A stretch of 64,000 bases of DNA. It comes from Micromonospora inositola (GTDB lineage Bacteria > Actinomycetota > Actinomycetes > Mycobacteriales > Micromonosporaceae). A program made the position numbers and the translations under genes. This document shows, piece after piece, positions 24,613 to 33,648 of this stretch. The stretch spans positions 1,860,001-1,924,000 of the forward strand of contig NZ_LT607754.1 of NCBI RefSeq assembly GCF_900090285.1, given 5' to 3'. Below the pieces are notes generated by a model. The model saw only the letters and a program-made list of their open reading frames with translations, was not told the origin of the DNA and searched no databases. Positions within the stretch are counted from its first letter, which is position 1, and each line of letters opens with the position of its first letter.

Positions 24613-27552
24613 TCAGCCCTGCACGACGAACCAGTAGTAGGCGTAGTCCGACCGGTTGCCGTCCTTGTCGACGGCGTACACGGAGATCGGGTACCAGCGC
24701 GCCTCGGTCGGGGTGAGGGTCACCGAGGCGGTGCCGTCAGCACCCGCCGGCACGGTCACCTCCGGCCCGTTGTCGAACTGGTAGACGTACGTCGCCACGT
24801 CGGGCATGCGCGGGGCGAAGGTGAAGACACCCGGCGCCCCGACCCCGCCCGCCGCCTCACCGCTCGGGTAGGTCGGCGACGTCACGGTCGGCGACGTGCT
24901 GACCATGAAGCTGTACGTGGCCTCCGGCGACAGCTCACCCGAGGCCGAGCGCGCGCGCACGGTCAGGGTGTTCCGGAAGCCCCGGTCCGGGGTGACGGAG
25001 AGATCCGCGGCCGTGCCGTCGGTCACCGCCACAGTCTGCTCCGGCCCGTCGTTGAGGCGGTACACGAAGTCGACGGTGTCCGGCAGCTCCGAGCTGAACC
25101 GGAAGCCCCCCGGCACGCCGATCCCGCCCTGCGGGTCGTACTCGTTGTAGAGGTACGAGACGATCGTCGGCTTCGGGTCCCGCACGGTGAAGGCGTACTC
25201 GCGCGACTGGGTGACGGTGCCGTCGCCGGTCACGGCGCGCACGGTCAGCATGGTCCAGCCCGCCCGCTCCGGCGTCCACGTCACGGAGGCGGTGCCGTCC
25301 GTCGCCGCCTCGACGGTCTTCTCCTCCTCGCCGTAGAAGGCGTAGTGGTAGGTGACCACGTCGGGCCGCTGCGGCCGGAAGGTGAACACGCCCGGAACGC
25401 CGGGCAGCCCGCTGCTGGCGTCCTTCGGGTACTGCGCCGACTCGACCAGCGGCGCGTCGTTGACCAGGAAGGTGAACGTCCGCTCGGCCGAGACCGTGCC
25501 GTCCGCGGTGACGCTGCGCACGGTCAGCGTGTGCGTCCCGCCCTGGTCCGGCGTCCACGTGACGGAGGCGTTGCCGTTGCCGTCGGCACCGACGCCCTGC
25601 TCGGCCCCGCCGTCGAAGCGGTACCGGAACTCCACCGTGTCGGGCACCGCGGAGCTGAACCGGAACTCGCCGGCCTGACCGGGGCCGCCGGCGTAGTAGT
25701 TGTCGTTGTAGAGGACGCCGTAGATGGTCGGCAGCAGGTCCCGGACCTCGAAGAACCAGCTCGCCGGGTCGGACTCGGTGCCGTCGCGGCTGACGCTGAC
25801 CACCGAGAGGTACACGTAGCCGGCCTCCGTCGGCGTCCAGGTCACCGAGCCGGTGCCGTCGGCGCCCGCCGCCACGGTGCCGGTCTCGCCGGCGAAGGAG
25901 TAGCGGTAGCTGACGGTGTCGGGCAGGCGTGGGGTGAAGGTGAACACGCCGGGCACGCCCTGGCCGCCGCCGTAGCCGTACTCCTCGTAGACCGTGGCCG
26001 AGATCTTCGGCTCGGTGAGAAGCTGGAACGACAGCTGCGCGGTGGCCTCCACCCCGTCGGCGGTGACGCTGGTGACGGAGAGCGTCCGGTTGCCGCCCTT
26101 GGTGGCGGTGACCGTCAGCGAGGCGGTGCCGTCGGCGTTGGCCGCCACGGTCTGCTCCGGGTCGCCGTCGAGGCCGAAGCGGTAGCGAACCACGCCCTGC
26201 AGCCGCGGCCGTACCGCGAACGTGGTGGGCACGCCGACCTCGGTGAGGTTGCCGTCGACCAGCGGCGACACGTCGTCGCCGAAGAAGCTGTACTCGGCGC
26301 GGGGGGAGCGGTTGCCCGCCGTGTCGACGCTCCACACCTCCAGCCGGTTGACGGCGACCCGCGGCGTCAGGGTCACGGTGGCCGTGCCGCCCGGCCGGGC
26401 GGCCGGCACCGTGCCGGTCTTGACGTCGTTCAGCTCGTAATCGAAACCCACGACGTCCGATGCCCCGCTGCCGTCGAAGGTGAACTCACCCGCCAGGGCC
26501 GGGGCGTGCCCGTCGGCCGGGAAGTCGGTGGAGGAGACGACCGGCGCGGCCGCCGGACCCTGGAAGTCGGTGCGGAAGTAGCAGGTTGCGCTCCACTCGC
26601 CGGTGGCCCGGCTGTCTGCGGCGCGCATCTGCCAGGCGTACACCCGGTCGTGCTGGAACAGGTCGTAGCTGAACCGGCCGACGGCCCGCTCGCCGTCGCG
26701 GGCGTTGTCGGTCCGCTCGATCCGGGCGTCCGGCTGGTCGACCGGCCAGAGCGCGACGGTGGCGGTGAGCATGTCGGTGCCGCCGGTGTCGTTGCGGTCC
26801 TTGTCGTGCAGGATCCCCGAGAGGCCAAGGTCGCCCCGACGGACCAGCTGGTACGGCTCGGCGGCGGTGCAGCCCGTGCCGGAGGTCTGCAGGTCGGTCG
26901 GCACGCCGGGCCGGAAGTTGTGGTCGACGGAGAGGCCGACCTTGCTGGCGTACCGTCGGAGCAGCGCGGGGTCCGCCTCCACGGCGGCGGGCAGCCGCAG
27001 CGACAGGGTCAGCGTCCGCTGGCCCTCGGCGAGCGCCTGGCGCAGCCCGGCGGTGGCGTCGAAGCCCACGTAGGGCGCCGGGCAGCCGGACTGGTCGGGC
27101 AGCTTCGTGGTGTCGATCCTGGCCAGGTCGGCCGGCGGCTTCACCCAGCTTGACCCGGAGGTGTAGGGCGCGGTGCGCCACAGCTCCACCTCGGGACGCT
27201 TGGTGCAGTCCGCCGCCCCGGTCTCCTTGGCGTCGAACTTGGCGAACTCGATGTCAGCGCCCAGATAGCGGGAGATGTCGAAGGTGAAGTAGGCCCGCGC
27301 GGTGTGCTGGTGGCCCTTGGCGTCCACCCAGGACCCGACCGGCACATCGCCGGCCTCGTCAATGTTGATCTTCTTGGGTCGCTGGGAGTCGGTCCAGGCC
27401 CAGGACGTGTTGGTTTCGTAGCGCACGTCGTACGCGGCGGCCGGCGCGGCGGTCGTGACGACCGTTCCGGCGGCGACCAGCATGGACAGTGCGGCGGCCA
27501 GCAGAGAACGTCCAGCGATTGACGACGAATTCGTGCCAGGCAGGAGGGTCAT
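24613..27552 (-). CDS. Large secreted protein with six Ig-like repeats
   Basis: The 979-residue product has a Sec signal peptide (cleavage near PAAAYD, about residue 40). An N-terminal beta-rich domain (about 41-230; [19 protein letters not shown]) resembles DNRLRE-type modules. About 230-425 forms a fibronectin-like region with paired cysteines. From about 430 to the end are six repeats of roughly 93 residues with the core [17 protein letters not shown] followed by [11 protein letters not shown] and VTADGT. No LPxTG anchor or catalytic motif is visible. Adhesion, surface-layer or structural roles are possible. ATG at 27552 has AGGTGG with 7-nt spacing. Confidence 0.8.
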
Positions 27553-28141: not shown

Positions 28142-28930
28142 TCAGTCGGCGAGCGGGCCGAGGAGCGGGCGCTTCGCGGTGACGGTGTCGCCGGAGGAGC
28201 GGCCGGTCAGCCGGCGCTTGATCCAGGGCGCCAGGTGCTGGCCGGCCCAGCGCAGGTCGGCGGCGCGCGCGGCCAGCCACGGGGTCGGCGCCGGGTGCGG
28301 CGGCACCAGCAGCCAGTCCTCGTCGCAGCCGACGCCGAGCGAGGTCAGTACCTGCGCGGCGACCCGCCGGTGCCCGGCCGCCGACAGGTGCAGCCGGTCG
28401 GTGCTCCAGAGCATCGGGTTGAGGTAGGTGTCGTCGGCGTACAGGTCGACCAGGATGGCACCGTGCCGCTCCGCGACCTCACCCACCACGCGGTTGAGCA
28501 ACGTGACGCGCGGTGCCACGAGACGCTGGCCGGGTAGCCGGGCCATCACGTCGGCGAACCGGAAGAGGATCACGTCCGCACCGCCGGAGCGCAGCTCGCC
28601 CACCACGTCGTCGAAGCGGGCGACGAACGAGTCCGGGTCGAAGGTCCGGCGCAGCACGTCGTTGCCGCCGGCGGCGAAGCTGATCAGGTCGGGCTTCATG
28701 GCCAGCGCGGCCGGCACCTGCTCGGCCACGACGCTCGGGAAGAGCCGACCCCGGATTGCCAGGTTCGCGTACCCGAAGTCCGGGCCGGCCTCGGCGGCGA
28801 GCCGGGTGGCCACCAGGTCCGCCCAACCGCGGTAGGTCCCGTCCGGATACGCGTCGTCCATGCCCTCGGTGAAGCTGTCGCCCACCGCCACGAAACTGCG
28901 CCAGCGCACCTGCTGCCCTCCGGTTCCCAT
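28142..28930 (-). CDS. SGNH/GDSL-family hydrolase
   Basis: The 262-residue enzyme starts at ATG 28930 (MGTGGQQVRWRSFVAVGDSF). Block I is GDSFTEG with nucleophile Ser19, block III is AGGNDVLR, and block V is TDRLHLSAAGHRRVA with the Asp/His pair. There is no signal peptide, so it is probably cytoplasmic. Family members deacylate esters, sugars or lipids; the substrate is unknown. The downstream small gene follows by three bases. Confidence 0.9.
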   Translation of the reverse strand: MGTGGQQVRWRSFVAVGDSFTEGMDDAYPDGTYRGWADLVATRLAAEAGPDFGYANLAIRGRLFPSVVAEQVPAALAMKPDLISFAAGGNDVLRRTFDPDSFVARFDDVVGELRSGGADVILFRFADVMARLPGQRLVAPRVTLLNRVVGEVAERHGAILVDLYADDTYLNPMLWSTDRLHLSAAGHRRVAAQVLTSLGVGCDEDWLLVPPHPAPTPWLAARAADLRWAGQHLAPWIKRRLTGRSSGDTVTAKRPLLGPLAD

Positions 28931-29130
28931 CGGTGCCCGCCATTCTGGCACCGCAGGTGGTGGACGGGCCGCCGGCCGCGTACGGACGTGGCGTGGCCCA
29001 CGCCGCCGACGGGTGTCACGGGGCAGAAAACCGGGCGCTCGGGCGGAAATAATGACGCGCGATCCCAATCGGGGACGGTCCGGAGTGGACGCCGCCCCCG
29101 ATCCGCCGGACACGAGCGAGGACGCACGCC

Positions 29131-30672
29131 ATGACCGAGGGACCGCCCTCCGTTCCCCCACCGGGACACCCCGGACCGTACGCCCCACCGCCCGCCGGAC
29201 CGCACGCCCACCCGGCGCCGGCCGGCCCGTACGGCCCACCTGCGCCGTACGGGCCGCCGCCCTACCCGCCACCGGCGACGTACGCTCCGCCGCCGTCACC
29301 GGGCCGGCGGTCCCGGCGCGGCCTCTGGATCGGGCTCGGCGCGGCGGTGCTCGCCCTGTCCCTGTGCTCGGCGGTCTCGCTCGTCGGCCTGAAGTCGTAC
29401 CTCGACGAGCGGAACGACGCCTCGGCCGCCGCGCTCGACGACGAGGACAACCCGATCAGGCAGGAGAAGATCGAGGCGCTGCTGGCTGAGCACACCAAGG
29501 CGCTCACGGAACGGAACGAGAAGACGTTCGTCGCGCCGTTCGATCCGACGACGAAGGGCCTGGTCGCGGAGCAGAGCAGCCTGTACCGGAACCTGAGCAG
29601 GCTGCCGCTGGCCGACGTCCGCTTCACGTACCGCCACAAGGGCGACTTCCGCCCGGTGGGCGGCGGGCACGAGGTCGACGTGACGGTGGCGTTCGTGCAC
29701 CGGTTCGACGGCTTCGACGTCGGCCCGGTCGAGGAGTGGTACCGGTGGACGATCGTCCAGGCCGACAAGGACGCCCCGCTGAAGGTCACCCGGGCCGGCG
29801 GCCTCCCGGAGGAGCGCAAGCGGGACGCGATCACCCACTACCCGGCCCCCTGGGACAAGTGGCGAAACCTCCACGTCGAGCGGACCCCGCACACCGTGCT
29901 GCTCGTCGATGCGTCGCTGCGGGCGGAGGCACAGCGGTACGCCCCGATCGCCGAGCAGGCCGCGGTGGACGACCTGGCCGCCTGGCAGGCCGGCGGGGTG
30001 AGCGCCAAGGCACCGTCGGGCTTCGTCATATCCCTGGTCAAGGGTCGTGCCGAGCTGGGTTCCCTCTACCGGACCACGAAGGAGACGCCCACCGAGTCCG
30101 GGGTCGCGATCCCGGTGCCGCCGGAGGGTGTGCTCAACAGCGACGAGAAGGGCCCCGTGGTCGGGGCCACCCGGGTGGTGATCGACGTCCGCGACGCGTA
30201 CCACTTCACCAGCGGCACCCGGGAGCGGCAGCTCAACCTCTTCCGGCACGAGATCGGCCACGCCCTGGTCGGCAACCTCAGCGCCCGCGCCCCGGGCTCG
30301 TACCTGCTCGGCGAGCGGGAGACGTGGCTGGTCGAGGGGTTCGCGGAGTACCTGGGTCACGGCCGGAAGCCGTGGCTGACCAGCGAGCGTACGGCCAACG
30401 CGCGGGCGGTGATCCGGGAGATCGGCTACCCGACTGCGCTGCCGGGCAGCCAATCCTTCGACATGGAGGGCCGGGGCGACTACTACTACTGGCTGGGTCA
30501 CTCCGCGATCGGCTTCATCGTCGAGCGGTACGGGGAGCAGAAGATGTTCCAGTTCGTGGCCGAGAACTACCGCAGCAGGAAGATCGGAGAGGTGACGCAG
30601 GACGTCCTCGGGGTGTCGTACGAGGAGTTCGAGAAGGCGTGGCTCGCCTACCTCAGGGCCGAGGTGCGCTGA
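29131..30672 (+). CDS. Membrane-anchored zinc metallopeptidase (peptidase MA-like)
   Basis: The 513-residue protein has a Pro/Gly/Tyr-rich cytoplasmic head of about 60 residues, one membrane segment (about 65-87), and a large extracellular part. The peptidase core has HEIGH (373-377) and a downstream glutamate ligand at about 402 in WLVEGFAEYLG, the gluzincin arrangement. The Pro-rich head resembles those of other actinobacterial membrane proteins that interact with cytoplasmic partners. ATG at 29131 follows GAGG. The substrate is unknown. Confidence 0.85.
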   Translation: MTEGPPSVPPPGHPGPYAPPPAGPHAHPAPAGPYGPPAPYGPPPYPPPATYAPPPSPGRRSRRGLWIGLGAAVLALSLCSAVSLVGLKSYLDERNDASAAALDDEDNPIRQEKIEALLAEHTKALTERNEKTFVAPFDPTTKGLVAEQSSLYRNLSRLPLADVRFTYRHKGDFRPVGGGHEVDVTVAFVHRFDGFDVGPVEEWYRWTIVQADKDAPLKVTRAGGLPEERKRDAITHYPAPWDKWRNLHVERTPHTVLLVDASLRAEAQRYAPIAEQAAVDDLAAWQAGGVSAKAPSGFVISLVKGRAELGSLYRTTKETPTESGVAIPVPPEGVLNSDEKGPVVGATRVVIDVRDAYHFTSGTRERQLNLFRHEIGHALVGNLSARAPGSYLLGERETWLVEGFAEYLGHGRKPWLTSERTANARAVIREIGYPTALPGSQSFDMEGRGDYYYWLGHSAIGFIVERYGEQKMFQFVAENYRSRKIGEVTQDVLGVSYEEFEKAWLAYLRAEVR

Positions 30673-30739: not shown

Positions 30740-31744
30740 TCAGGCCGCGTACGCGAGCAGCGTCAGGCCGCGCACGTCGGTCGGCTCCTCGACCGTGCCG
30801 AGCGGCTTGAAGGTGCTGTCCAGGACGGTGATGCCGGTCGCCCGGCGGACGATCACCTTGCCGTCGGCGGTGAACAGGATGCTCCGGACCTCGCCGGCGC
30901 CGGGCAGGTCGACCACCTTGCTGGTGGTGGTGTCGACGACCGCGAAGCTGCCGTCCTGGCGGGATGGGTCGGTGCCCTTCCAGCCGACCGCCACGTACCG
31001 GCCGTCCATCGAGACGCCGCGCGCCTGCCAGCCGTCGTGCTTCCCCGCCTCGGCCTTCGGCGGGGTGTAGCTGTACTTGCGTCCCCCCTTGCCGCCCGTC
31101 ACGAACGGCTTGCCGTAGTCGTCGACGGCGGCCAGCCACTTCCCGTCGGCGGACCAGTACCGGTCGGTCTCCTCGCCCGGGTCACCGTGGTGCGGCCCGC
31201 CGGCCACCAGGTCCATCAGCACCGAGCGGTTGCGCTGCTGCACCATCAGCCAGTCGTCGCCCTGCCAGACCAGCGCTCGGCTGCCGAGGCAACTGACCCC
31301 CTTCTCCAGGGTCCGTCGCTGCGAGCCGTCGATCGCCGCGGTCATCAGGGTGCCGGTGTCGTCGCCGTTCTGCACCCAGGCGATCCGCTTGCCGTCCGGG
31401 GAGACGGTGATGGTGTTCTCGGTGCAGGAGCCGGAGCCGAACGGGATCCGGGCGGTCACCTTGTCCGTGTCGCCCTGGACGGCGTGGATGCTGGCCTCCT
31501 TGCCGCTCGTCCCCAGGTAGTAGCGGGTGCCGGCGAGCGTCGCGGCGTCGGAGCTGACCGGAGCCGCGCTGGTGACGGCGGCCGGCGCGGCGGAGGAGGC
31601 GGCGGTGGGAGGGGTCGCGGTCTTGTCCCCGCCACAGGCGCTCAGGCCCACCACCGCGAGCGCGGCGGCCGACAGGGCCACGGCACGCCGGAGGGTACGG
31701 AGACGAGCGGTGCGGGTGGCGGCATCAGCGGCGAAAACGTTCAT
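30740..31744 (-). CDS. Lipoprotein with beta-propeller-like domain, paralogue of the adjacent sigma-linked sensor
   Basis: The 334-residue protein has a lipoprotein signal with lipobox LSAC (Cys37). A short linker precedes a TolB/WD-like domain with repeated SPDGKRIAWV and SADGKWLAAV blades. The domain is closely related, also at the DNA level, to the extracellular part of the next upstream gene (31914-33044), with shared SRQDGSFAVVD, SYTPPK/TYTPPK and KVVDLPGAG stretches. It lacks that protein's cytoplasmic and membrane segments. Its promoter contains the same GGCAACC-N17-CGTCT motif as the sigma-factor operon. I infer that it belongs to that sigma regulon and may bind the same ligand. Confidence 0.85.
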   Translation of the reverse strand: MNVFAADAATRTARLRTLRRAVALSAAALAVVGLSACGGDKTATPPTAASSAAPAAVTSAAPVSSDAATLAGTRYYLGTSGKEASIHAVQGDTDKVTARIPFGSGSCTENTITVSPDGKRIAWVQNGDDTGTLMTAAIDGSQRRTLEKGVSCLGSRALVWQGDDWLMVQQRNRSVLMDLVAGGPHHGDPGEETDRYWSADGKWLAAVDDYGKPFVTGGKGGRKYSYTPPKAEAGKHDGWQARGVSMDGRYVAVGWKGTDPSRQDGSFAVVDTTTSKVVDLPGAGEVRSILFTADGKVIVRRATGITVLDSTFKPLGTVEEPTDVRGLTLLAYAA

Positions 31745-31788
31745 GGTTCCTGTCCTTGGGGGTGGCGGTGCGTGTTCGACGTACCCCA

Positions 31789-31817
31789 AGACGTCAAGTT
31801 CTCGATGGGGGGTTGCC
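31789..31817 (-). promoter_or_regulatory. ECF-type promoter of the lipoprotein gene
   Basis: GGCAACC (31817-31811), 17 bases, CGTCT (31793-31789) on the minus strand, about 45 bases upstream of the ATG. The same elements and spacing precede the sigma gene. Confidence 0.7.
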
Positions 31818-31857
31818 GCCTCATCGAGAAAATTTCCGACGATGTTCGGCGACACGA

Positions 31858-31893
31858 CACAGGCCCCCGGCACCGAGGTGCCGAGGGCCTGTG
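31858..31893 (-). terminator. Hairpin terminator of the sigma/sensor operon
   Basis: CACAGGCCC pairs with GGGCCTGTG and, inside one mismatch, CGGCACC pairs with GGTGCCG around a 2-nt loop, 20 bases beyond the sensor stop codon. Confidence 0.75.
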
Positions 31894-31913
31894 GGAGGCA
31901 CCGGAAGGGCAGG

Positions 31914-33044
31914 TCAGGGCACGTACGCCAGCAGCCGCTGGCCGCGTACGGACGCCGGTTCAGCGACACTGCCGAGCTGCCGGAAGTCCCCGTCGAGCAC
32001 GGTGAGCGTGTTCTCCCGCTGGACGATCACCTTGCCGTCGAGGGTGAACAGGATGCCGCGTACCTTGCCGGCGCCGGGCAGGTCGACCACCTTGCTGGCG
32101 GTGACGTCGACGACCGCGAAACTGCCGTCCTGGCGGGACGGGTCGGTGCCCACCCAGCCGACCGCGACGTACCGGCCGTCGATCGAGACGCTGCGAGGCT
32201 GCCAGCCGTCGTGCAGCGCGGCCTCGTCCTTCGGCGGCGTGTAGGTGTACTGGCGCACCACGCCCTTGCCGGTCACCCAGTGCTTGCCGAACTCCGCGTC
32301 GAACGCCGCCAACCACTTCCCGTCGGCGGACCAGCACCGGTCGGTCTCCTGACCCGGGTCGCCGTTGTGCGGCTTCCCGGCGACCATGTCCATGAGCACC
32401 GAGCGGTTGCCGGTCTGCGCCATCAGCAGGTCACCGCCCTGCCATACCAGTGGCCGGGGCCCGAGGCAGGTGATGCCGGTGGCGACGGTCCGCTGCCGGG
32501 ATCCGTCGATGCGGGAGGTGACGAGCGTGCCGTTCATCCCGTCGGCGGCGCCGTCCTTCACCCAGGCCAGCCGCTTGCCGTCCGGCGAGATCGTCATCGT
32601 GTTGGCAGCGCAGCCGCTCTTGTCGAGCGGGAGCACGTTCGTCTCGTGCCGCCCGCTGCGTACCACGTGGATGCGGGCCTCGCTGTCGGTGAACTCCAGG
32701 TAGTAGCGGGTGCCGCCGAGCACGGCCGGCTTGGCCGGCGGGCTGCTGTGGCTCGTGCTCGCCGAGGCGGTCGCGGACGGCTGCGGGGTCGGGGTGACCT
32801 CGACCGGCGGCGCGCTGCTGGTGACCGACGTGGCGGGGGCGGGCAGGTTCGCCTGCCCGTTCGGCCGGATCGCCAGGGCGGTGCCGGTGGCGGCGGCGAT
32901 CATCACCAGGGCGGCGACCGAGGTGGTGACGGTCCGCTGGATGCCGATCCGGCGGGACGTCCGCAGGGCGCGGTCCCGCAGGTCGACCGGGGTGACCTCC
33001 TCGGCCAGGTCGGCCAGGTCGAACCGGAGACGGTCCTCGTTCAT
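31914..33044 (-). CDS. Transmembrane sensor, probable anti-sigma factor, with beta-propeller-like exterior
   Basis: The 376-residue protein has a 38-residue acidic/basic cytoplasmic head, a membrane segment (about 39-59), a Ser/Thr/Pro linker and an extracellular TolB/WD-like domain of about 270 residues. Its start overlaps the 3' end of the ECF sigma gene by four bases (ATGA type), so the two are translationally coupled. This layout is typical of membrane anti-sigma factors or sigma-coupled sensors. No classical zinc-anti-sigma HxxxCxxC motif is present in the short head, so inhibition of the sigma factor is inferred only from context. Confidence 0.8.
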   Translation of the reverse strand: MNEDRLRFDLADLAEEVTPVDLRDRALRTSRRIGIQRTVTTSVAALVMIAAATGTALAIRPNGQANLPAPATSVTSSAPPVEVTPTPQPSATASASTSHSSPPAKPAVLGGTRYYLEFTDSEARIHVVRSGRHETNVLPLDKSGCAANTMTISPDGKRLAWVKDGAADGMNGTLVTSRIDGSRQRTVATGITCLGPRPLVWQGGDLLMAQTGNRSVLMDMVAGKPHNGDPGQETDRCWSADGKWLAAFDAEFGKHWVTGKGVVRQYTYTPPKDEAALHDGWQPRSVSIDGRYVAVGWVGTDPSRQDGSFAVVDVTASKVVDLPGAGKVRGILFTLDGKVIVQRENTLTVLDGDFRQLGSVAEPASVRGQRLLAYVP

Positions 33045-33571
33045 CGGGCGCTCCCTTCCAGGACGTACAGCTCGGCGAGTTCCGGGGCGACGGTGCGCAG
33101 CTTGGCCAGGGCCTTCGAGGTCTGGCTCTTGACGGTGCCGACGGTCACGCCGAGCAGGTCGGCGGCCTCGGCCTCGGTGCGGTCCTCGAAGAACCGCAGG
33201 ACCAGCACGGCGCGCTGTTTGGCGGAGAGCTTCGCCAGCGCGGCCCGCAGGGTCAGCCGAAGCGTCGTCTGGTGGGCGTGGTCAGGGGCCGAGTCGCCTC
33301 CGCGCGGCTCGGGCAGGTCGCCTGGCATTGACTCGGGAACCCGGCGCCGTCGCCACCAGGAGACCTGGAGGTGGTACATGACCTTGCGGGTGTACGCCTC
33401 GGCGTTGCCGCTGTCGTGCAGCCGGCTCCAGGACCGGTGGGTCCGGGCCAGCGCCGACTGGACGAGATCCTCGGCCAGGTGCTGGTCGCCGGTGAGCAGG
33501 TAGGCCGAGCGCAGGAGCGCGGGGGTCCGGTAACGGACGAACGAGTCGAACTCACTCAGCAGAGGGTCCAC
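33041..33571 (-). CDS. ECF RNA polymerase sigma factor (SigE family)
   Basis: The 176-residue protein has region 2 (residues about 8-75; LLRSAYLLTGDQHLAEDLVQ and AYTRKVMYHLQVSWWRRRR) and region 4 (about 108-165; LSAKQRAVLVLRFFEDRTEAEAA, then GVTVGTVKSQTSKALAKL). GTG at 33571 follows AAGGA with 9-nt spacing. The gene is first in a two-gene operon with the membrane sensor. Its promoter carries GGCAACC-N17-CGTCT, shared only (as far as I could see) with the paralogous lipoprotein gene, suggesting autoregulation. The inducing signal is unknown. Confidence 0.93.
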   Translation of the reverse strand: MDPLLSEFDSFVRYRTPALLRSAYLLTGDQHLAEDLVQSALARTHRSWSRLHDSGNAEAYTRKVMYHLQVSWWRRRRVPESMPGDLPEPRGGDSAPDHAHQTTLRLTLRAALAKLSAKQRAVLVLRFFEDRTEAEAADLLGVTVGTVKSQTSKALAKLRTVAPELAELYVLEGSAR

Positions 33572-33619
33572 ACGAGCCGATCCTTGGGGTGAGGTGGTAC
33601 ATCATCCTGACGCCCTTCC

Positions 33620-33648
33620 AGACGTCACCCTCAGCCGCGGTGGTTGCC
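33620..33648 (-). promoter_or_regulatory. ECF-type promoter of the sigma-factor operon
   Basis: GGCAACC (33648-33642), 17 bases, CGTCT (33624-33620) on the minus strand, about 49 bases before the GTG. Similarity to the lipoprotein promoter extends upstream (TTCTC, GAGGC). Confidence 0.7.

Follow-up and report, generated by a model that had tools for sequence, protein, structure and literature searches.

The 64,000-nucleotide stretch of Micromonospora inositola analyzed here (hereafter the window; NCBI RefSeq assembly GCF_900090285.1, contig NZ_LT607754.1, positions 1,860,001 to 1,924,000) carries on its minus strand a compact locus comprising genes for an extracytoplasmic function (ECF) sigma factor, a single-pass membrane sensor presumed to be its anti-sigma factor, and a lipoprotein paralogous to the exterior of that sensor. 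The sigma gene (33041-33571, GTG start, 176 amino acids) shares an ATGA overlap with the sensor gene (31914-33044, 375 residues), and the lipoprotein gene (30740-31744, 334 amino acids) lies downstream. These places and the overlap had been called in an original prediction made from the DNA letters alone, and we confirm them. The sigma operon and the lipoprotein gene are preceded by identical copies of the element GGCAACC-N17-CGTCT, at 33620-33648 and 31789-31817 respectively, again as predicted; its two halves are likely the -35 and -10 boxes. The further upstream similarity that was claimed for the two promoters holds within the window (CTTCTCATCGAGG versus TTTTCTCGATGAGG) but is not general in relatives. 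Between the sensor gene and the lipoprotein promoter lies a strong terminator-like hairpin (31858-31893) with no T run; the region 31840-31913 folds at -44.8 kcal/mol (z -6.39), an energy reached by none of 200 shuffled sequences.

The best NCBIfam match of the sigma factor is TIGR02983, at 184.2 bits against a curated cut-off of 141.55, which places it in the SigE family. The sensor has a short cytoplasmic N-terminus, one hydrophobic segment at about residues 37-60 (delimited by eye), a Pro/Ser/Thr linker and a TolB-like beta-propeller exterior (residues 105-375; 31917-32732). Its AlphaFold model has a predicted local distance difference test (pLDDT) score of at least 90 at 236 of the 375 residues and matches the TolB propeller fold, a comparison made on the sensor only; with about 16% identity, the likeness that we claim to TolB of the Tol-Pal system is one of fold only. 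The ZAS class I anti-sigma domain is recognized by an HxxxCxxC motif in the cytoplasmic domain, and in the sensor the cytoplasmic stretch, about residues 1-36, contains neither histidine nor cysteine and hence lacks this motif. The ATGA overlap and the one-pass layout fit a co-transcribed anti-sigma partner, and we infer that the sensor acts as one.

The lipoprotein is 55% identical to the sensor over 353 amino acids (E 2e-123), and a search of the 6.7 Mb genome with the sensor (E<=0.001) recovered these two proteins as the sole matches. It scores 30.8 bits against the Pfam model PD40 and shows the features of a bacterial lipoprotein, its leader (31637-31744) carrying the lipobox LSAC at Cys37. 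This leader resembles the sensor membrane segment: aligned to sensor residues 11-62 it gives a z of 4.1, equaled by one of 500 shuffles. The closeness of the two paralogs at the DNA level, which had been pointed out earlier, is real (62-90% identity in windows of 150 columns), but it is no higher than that to some other species' sensors, and gene conversion between sensor and lipoprotein within the same genome finds no support on this ground.

We then examined the conservation of the promoter element. Across the whole genome there are five matches to GGCAACC-N15..18-CGTCT. Of the three with N17, two are the sigma and lipoprotein promoters and one precedes another ECF sigma gene. When 160 genomes of the genus were searched with the window sigma, 64 (the window's included) had a match at at least 80% identity, and all 64 loci were examined. 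With sigma starts set by alignment to the window sigma, GCAAC[CT]-N17-CGTC stands before the sigma gene in every one of the 64, beginning 64-80 bases ahead of the start, so that by sequence the sigma operon has what an autoregulated ECF promoter should have, an AAC -35 and a CGT -10 of its own that are conserved in orthologs. Companion propellers found by tblastn with sensor exteriors, and hence independently of the motif, number 22, and the motif precedes all of them: 20 with N17 and two (G004 and G075) with N16, two of the 22 sites having been placed by hand. Both strands of the 64 loci (1,014,556 bases) contain 89 matches to GCAAC[CT]-N17-CGTC, namely the 64 sigma promoters, 20 of the similarity-found companions, two further companions found through the motif, one match at a contig edge in G055, a place at which a companion is to be expected, and two others. 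The promoters of relatives also widely share CGGCAACC and CGTCTGG, and most promoters of the 64 sigma loci and the 22 companions have a conserved GTCA about 10 bases past the -10 box, which may belong to the initially transcribed region. In ten companion-less genomes scanned with GGCAACC-N15-GRCGTCTGG, eight gave the sigma promoter alone and two gave no site; at this stringency, thus, no conserved non-regulatory target other than the companions was seen.

Similar arrangements occur outside Micromonospora. From a larger group of genomes of the family, 101 were sampled, of which 24 gave matches, and eight of the 15 extra-genus loci that were fetched have a second propeller. In genus g16 the sigma promoter reads GGCAACC-N16-CATCTTG in all four genomes, the same altered element stands before both adjacent lipoprotein propellers (G242, G254), and the four loci hold no further match to it; as judged from these sequences, the sigma and lipoprotein promoters changed together. 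Absence of the motif from orthologous promoters had been named beforehand as the outcome that would sink the original prediction, which accordingly survives in the 64 sigma promoters, the 22 companions and g16 alike. In four genomes (G228, G209, G243 and G237) a lipoprotein propeller gene lies directly before sigma and sensor. In three of these loci, of g18 and g44, it stands behind a shared element that fits the pattern CGAACGG..GTC..CGCGTCTT, to which G243 gave no match. In G227 and G208 the second propeller is about 3 kb away and lacks a shared element. A contig-level genome search with the sensor returned two loci, one of them a far relative. Spread by plasmids was also considered and set aside, only one weak match having been found.

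Based on these observations, we propose that the locus encodes a cell-surface module in which the sigma factor drives its own operon together with a free propeller that binds or titrates the same class of cue. The one-pass sensor with its propeller exterior would hold the conserved ECF sigma factor; when a cue meets the propeller, sigma would be freed and would transcribe its own operon, giving positive feedback, and from the promoter copy behind the hairpin it would also transcribe the lipid-tethered free propeller. The latter would most likely bind the same class of extracellular cue and remove it, which would be both a protective output and a negative feedback, and where the companion still matches the sensor the signal would be damped as well. 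This module as a whole is our preferred reading, which we hold tentatively and place a little short of probable. The component claims differ in strength: transcription of the companion by this sigma factor is quite probable, and that the companion acts by binding the cue, as a sponge with feedback, is plausible and somewhat short of probable.

Several observations weigh against this reading, beginning with those on the motif itself. The genome-wide scans covered strict forms of the motif. In six companion-bearing genomes the form GGCAACC-N15-GRCGTC recovers the sigma site in all six and six of seven companion sites, the missing one being that of G113, which reads AACGTC. It also recovers ten further sites (one each in G000, G052 and G021, four in G047, three in G113 and none in G116). 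Seven of these form two orthologous sets, X (G000, G113 and G047) and Y (G021, G113, G047 and G052); the sites of each set immediately precede an ECF sigma gene distinct from that of the present locus. This rules out chance for the seven, as well as an exclusive two-promoter regulon. Operon X also occurs in the window's own genome (L121:977-1468); the other ECF sigma operons so located are L132:1582-2139 and L139:875-1462, with orthologs in L122, L140, L124 and L134. The sigma genes behind the X and Y sites code for 163-204 amino acids, and a membrane partner follows in the four loci inspected; four of these sigma factors scored 137-141 bits with TIGR02983, slightly below the cut-off, and the window sigma is 31% and 34% identical to one sigma of each set. 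The remaining three sites, two in G047 and one in G113 that precedes a maltose O-acetyltransferase-like frame, are without a counterpart among the ten loci.

Another sigma factor could consequently read the lipoprotein promoter, and the two other ECF operons that carry the motif led us to lower our confidence in transcription by this sigma factor, which had been close to firm. At its strongest, this alternative holds that another ECF factor reads the shared promoter too or instead, so that the window sigma would not be the main regulator of the lipoprotein. An AAC at -35 and a CGT at -10 are described as generic for ECF factors (PMC8103513), and the strict site precedes X in three and Y in four of the six genomes scanned; against this, the site accompanies the sigma operon and companions in every locus examined, the two promoters of g16 have changed in concert, and CGTCTGG, which is present in most sigma promoters here, is missing from the X and Y operons. 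We consider it distinctly improbable. It appears more likely that X and Y serve themselves via a similar promoter than that they are further targets, and in either case the motif is not private. Hence the original proposal of autoregulation with the lipoprotein in the sigma regulon gains strong comparative support but loses any exclusivity.

The companions themselves provide further points of this kind. For their count we left out loci with an interrupted or truncated sigma gene (G013, G103, G049, G053, G094) and two that end less than 500 bases past the sensor (G051, G055), which leaves 57 loci, one of them (G076) with a frameshifted sensor. A companion propeller lies downstream in 23 of these: class A in nine genomes (ten genes, two of them in G052), class B in eight, class C in four and class D in two (G096 and G037, in the latter 2.4 kb downstream). 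Micromonospora soli is a species whose locus has two companions. The similarity-found companions are those of classes A-C; the motif itself led to class D, whose promoters accordingly provide no independent evidence. In the other 34 loci no companion was found downstream, and it thus appears dispensable. A lipobox pattern is present in 17 of the 22 similarity-found companions, and G116 has PSAC; none of the four class C companions has one. Class A companions are 46-73% identical to the sensor of their own genome, with G026 (24%) as the exception, those of class B 20-23% and those of class C 36-42%, and most companions are not closest to their own sensor; a shared cue is accordingly doubtful for the 13 of 22 at 20-42%. 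The ratio of nonsynonymous to synonymous substitutions (dN/dS; here and below, values near saturation are rough) is 0.998 for the window lipoprotein versus that of G116. In favor of the proposed module, by contrast, this ratio is 0.16-0.54 for companions in seven pairs of relatives, and the 21 type I sensors have 79 nearly invariant positions, 67 of which are kept in at least nine of the ten class A companions. The decoy function first suggested for the lipoprotein thus seems to fit class A, and as a general claim it is too narrow, as it does not obviously fit the other classes.

An alternative with the opposite sign of feedback is that the lipoprotein is a co-receptor, which captures and presents the cue or docks on the sensor propeller and is needed for activation. 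Control and location on the same surface would suit this role, as would the position of the lipoprotein as first gene of the sigma locus in g18 and g44; furthermore, the lipoprotein CseA is described as acting in an ECF system (PMC8999054). However, the 34 of 57 loci that have sigma and sensor with no companion nearby indicate that it is not generally required, and we regard this role as unlikely.

Returning to the proposed module, we investigated how the companions arose. In a tree of 80 propellers, whose bootstrap is not fully settled, the companions need four label changes, three of them forced by well supported branches, such counts being unable to separate gain from loss. A single clade of all ten class A companions within type I was rejected (approximately unbiased test, p-AU 1.3e-154), whereas the nine that remain when the second G052 gene is left out are compatible with one clade (p-AU 0.42). 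That second gene is a mosaic of a lipoprotein leader and a sensor-lineage propeller: its promoter and leader are 79-87% identical to those of the first G052 companion, while in four windows its propeller is 81-95% identical to the G047 sensor versus 52-60% to the first companion. On this comparison, the companion arrangement looks to have arisen more than once. The companion leader resembles the sensor membrane segment in five of the ten class A companions and in two of two class C companions, as if in these lines a sensor had lost its sigma-binding tail and its membrane segment had become a signal peptide. We do not claim this origin as a general rule, since the other five class A leaders do not support it and the two class B leaders tested show no clear resemblance.

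Sensor exteriors, too, are exchanged. Between G026 and G113 the sigma factors are 91.5% identical, the cytoplasmic and membrane parts of the sensors 95.2% and the companions 89.1%, with the exteriors at 30.5%; for G099 and G033 the corresponding values are 99.4%, 98.4%, 89.6% and 62.9%. Judging from such pairs, whole exteriors are substituted while the chassis is conserved. The same chassis bears an unrelated exterior in G158 (L152) and G045 (L169). That of G158 has an FG-GAP stretch at E 0.007, below the Pfam cut-off, and is similar to the membrane partner encoded in ECF operon Y (34% over 230 residues in G052, E 8e-29; 39% over 116 in G021), which suggests that exteriors move between ECF systems too. 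In nine pairs of relatives the exterior dN/dS is 0.30-1.13, highest in the swapped pair, and that of sigma is 0.04-0.37. Separately, two sensor-type propeller proteins (P0044 and P0072) have an extra C-terminal domain of about 150 amino acids.

These patterns bear on two further alternatives. The lipoprotein could be a pure effector, with a surface job (in the envelope, in adhesion or in binding a rival's product) unrelated to the sensor cue and with paralogy reflecting no more than the source of the domain. The companions of classes B and C and of G026 indeed differ strongly from the sensor (20-42%) while promoter and companion are kept, and the companion can outlast the sensor exterior in conservation, as in G099 and G033. 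Yet the repeated pairing with sensor-type propellers and the G052 mosaic would be unexpected if any surface protein served, and we consider a pure effector rather unlikely. Alternatively, companions could serve chiefly as a reservoir of propeller cassettes, which would alter the specificity of the sensor by recombining with it; in favor of this one might cite the G052 mosaic, wholesale replacement as in G026 versus G113, and the unrelated exteriors of G158 and G045. This we judge very improbable, as the conserved dedicated promoters and the lipoboxes of classes A and B imply expression and export, there is no excess own-genome similarity of the kind that gene conversion would leave, and the mosaic fits transfer from sensor to lipoprotein rather than the reverse. 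A wider extension of the favored module is a polymorphic recognition system with a fixed ECF sigma and chassis, exchangeable and fast-changing exteriors (some shared with other ECF systems), a free version of such a receptor on the cell surface as dedicated output, and cassettes moving from sensor lineage to lipoprotein. An exterior that changes fast and is swapped would be suited to recognizing biological partners that themselves change, such as phages, rivals, predators or kin; we nevertheless regard this extension as doubtful.

The sigma gene (window 33041-33571) also serves as an integration site in relatives. In G049, G013 and G053 the gene is interrupted near nucleotide 445 and continues from about 436, with a short shared core; the halves are about 35 kb apart in G049, about 4 kb apart in G013 and on two contigs in G053, and G103 shows the left junction only (the disrupted loci are L179:1974, L183:11870, L184:7732, L182, L178:1975 and L086). 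A serine recombinase (Resolvase, 2.8e-21) begins about 60 bases inside in G049, and G103 has a similar frame of 518 amino acids. In G013 (L086) a second sensor gene, fronted by a 24-base sigma remnant, lies upstream of the interrupted sigma gene, and the downstream sensor is frameshifted. In G094 (L180) the sigma gene is cut at nucleotide 437 and joined directly to an SGNH-hydrolase-like gene resembling window 28142-29299, which is probably a deletion. Sigma-sensor fusions suggested by long open frames in G129 and G075 proved to be normal ATGA overlaps. Elsewhere in the window, 24613-27552 on the minus strand codes for a protein of 979 amino acids with several immunoglobulin-like domain matches.

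If the proposed module is real, it would be a circuit that has evolved more than once and that characteristically puts out, in released form, a receptor domain of the kind it senses with, the only conserved non-regulatory output detected here. With a single sigma factor, a single promoter motif and a small set of proteins, it lends itself to tests in ordinary Micromonospora strains, and the swapped exteriors on one chassis provide a natural series for finding the cues of ECF systems and for building chimeric sensors. Our search of the literature found no description of this layout, and the statement in the original prediction that none exists is nearly right, its one qualification being the mpt83-sigK-rskA cassette, in which a sigma-driven lipoprotein gene likewise lies beside genes for sigma and anti-sigma factors. 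The lipoprotein of that cassette has a fasciclin-type domain that is not known to be copied from the anti-sigma exterior, and SigK belongs to another ECF group. The window locus shares the arrangement, with the promoter assigned by sequence, and differs in its components: the Pfam hits of the window lipoprotein (E<=0.1) include no fasciclin model, and neither an MPT83-type lipoprotein nor a SigK-type sigma factor is present. In the account that we draw on, this nearest published precedent is a conserved minimal cassette of Mycobacterium and Yersinia, which like the present system combines an ECF sigma factor and a membrane anti-sigma factor with a surface protein anchored by a lipid, the gene for which carries a sigma-binding site of its own; unlike here, that account mentions no cassette exchange (PMC7509140).

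The SigE-CseA-CseBC system of Streptomyces coelicolor is likewise an ECF sigma system influenced by a lipoprotein, and the account of it consulted mentions no paralogy between sensor and lipoprotein (PMC8999054). It differs further in that a two-component system rather than a one-pass anti-sigma factor governs sigma. In the SigI-RsgI systems of Clostridium thermocellum, a chassis of sigma and anti-sigma factor carries extracellular domains that differ with the cue. These systems run in parallel within one genome and control enzyme regulons, whereas here a single orthologous system varies its exterior between species and has a free propeller as output. At least six such sigma/anti-sigma systems with distinct regulons are reported for that organism (PMC10766802). 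AAC and CGT boxes and positive autoregulation are described as general for ECF factors (PMC8103513), so that the sigma operon is by itself ordinary. What is new is the paralogous companion, which originated more than once and, if it acts as we propose, would be a bacterial counterpart of soluble decoy receptors.

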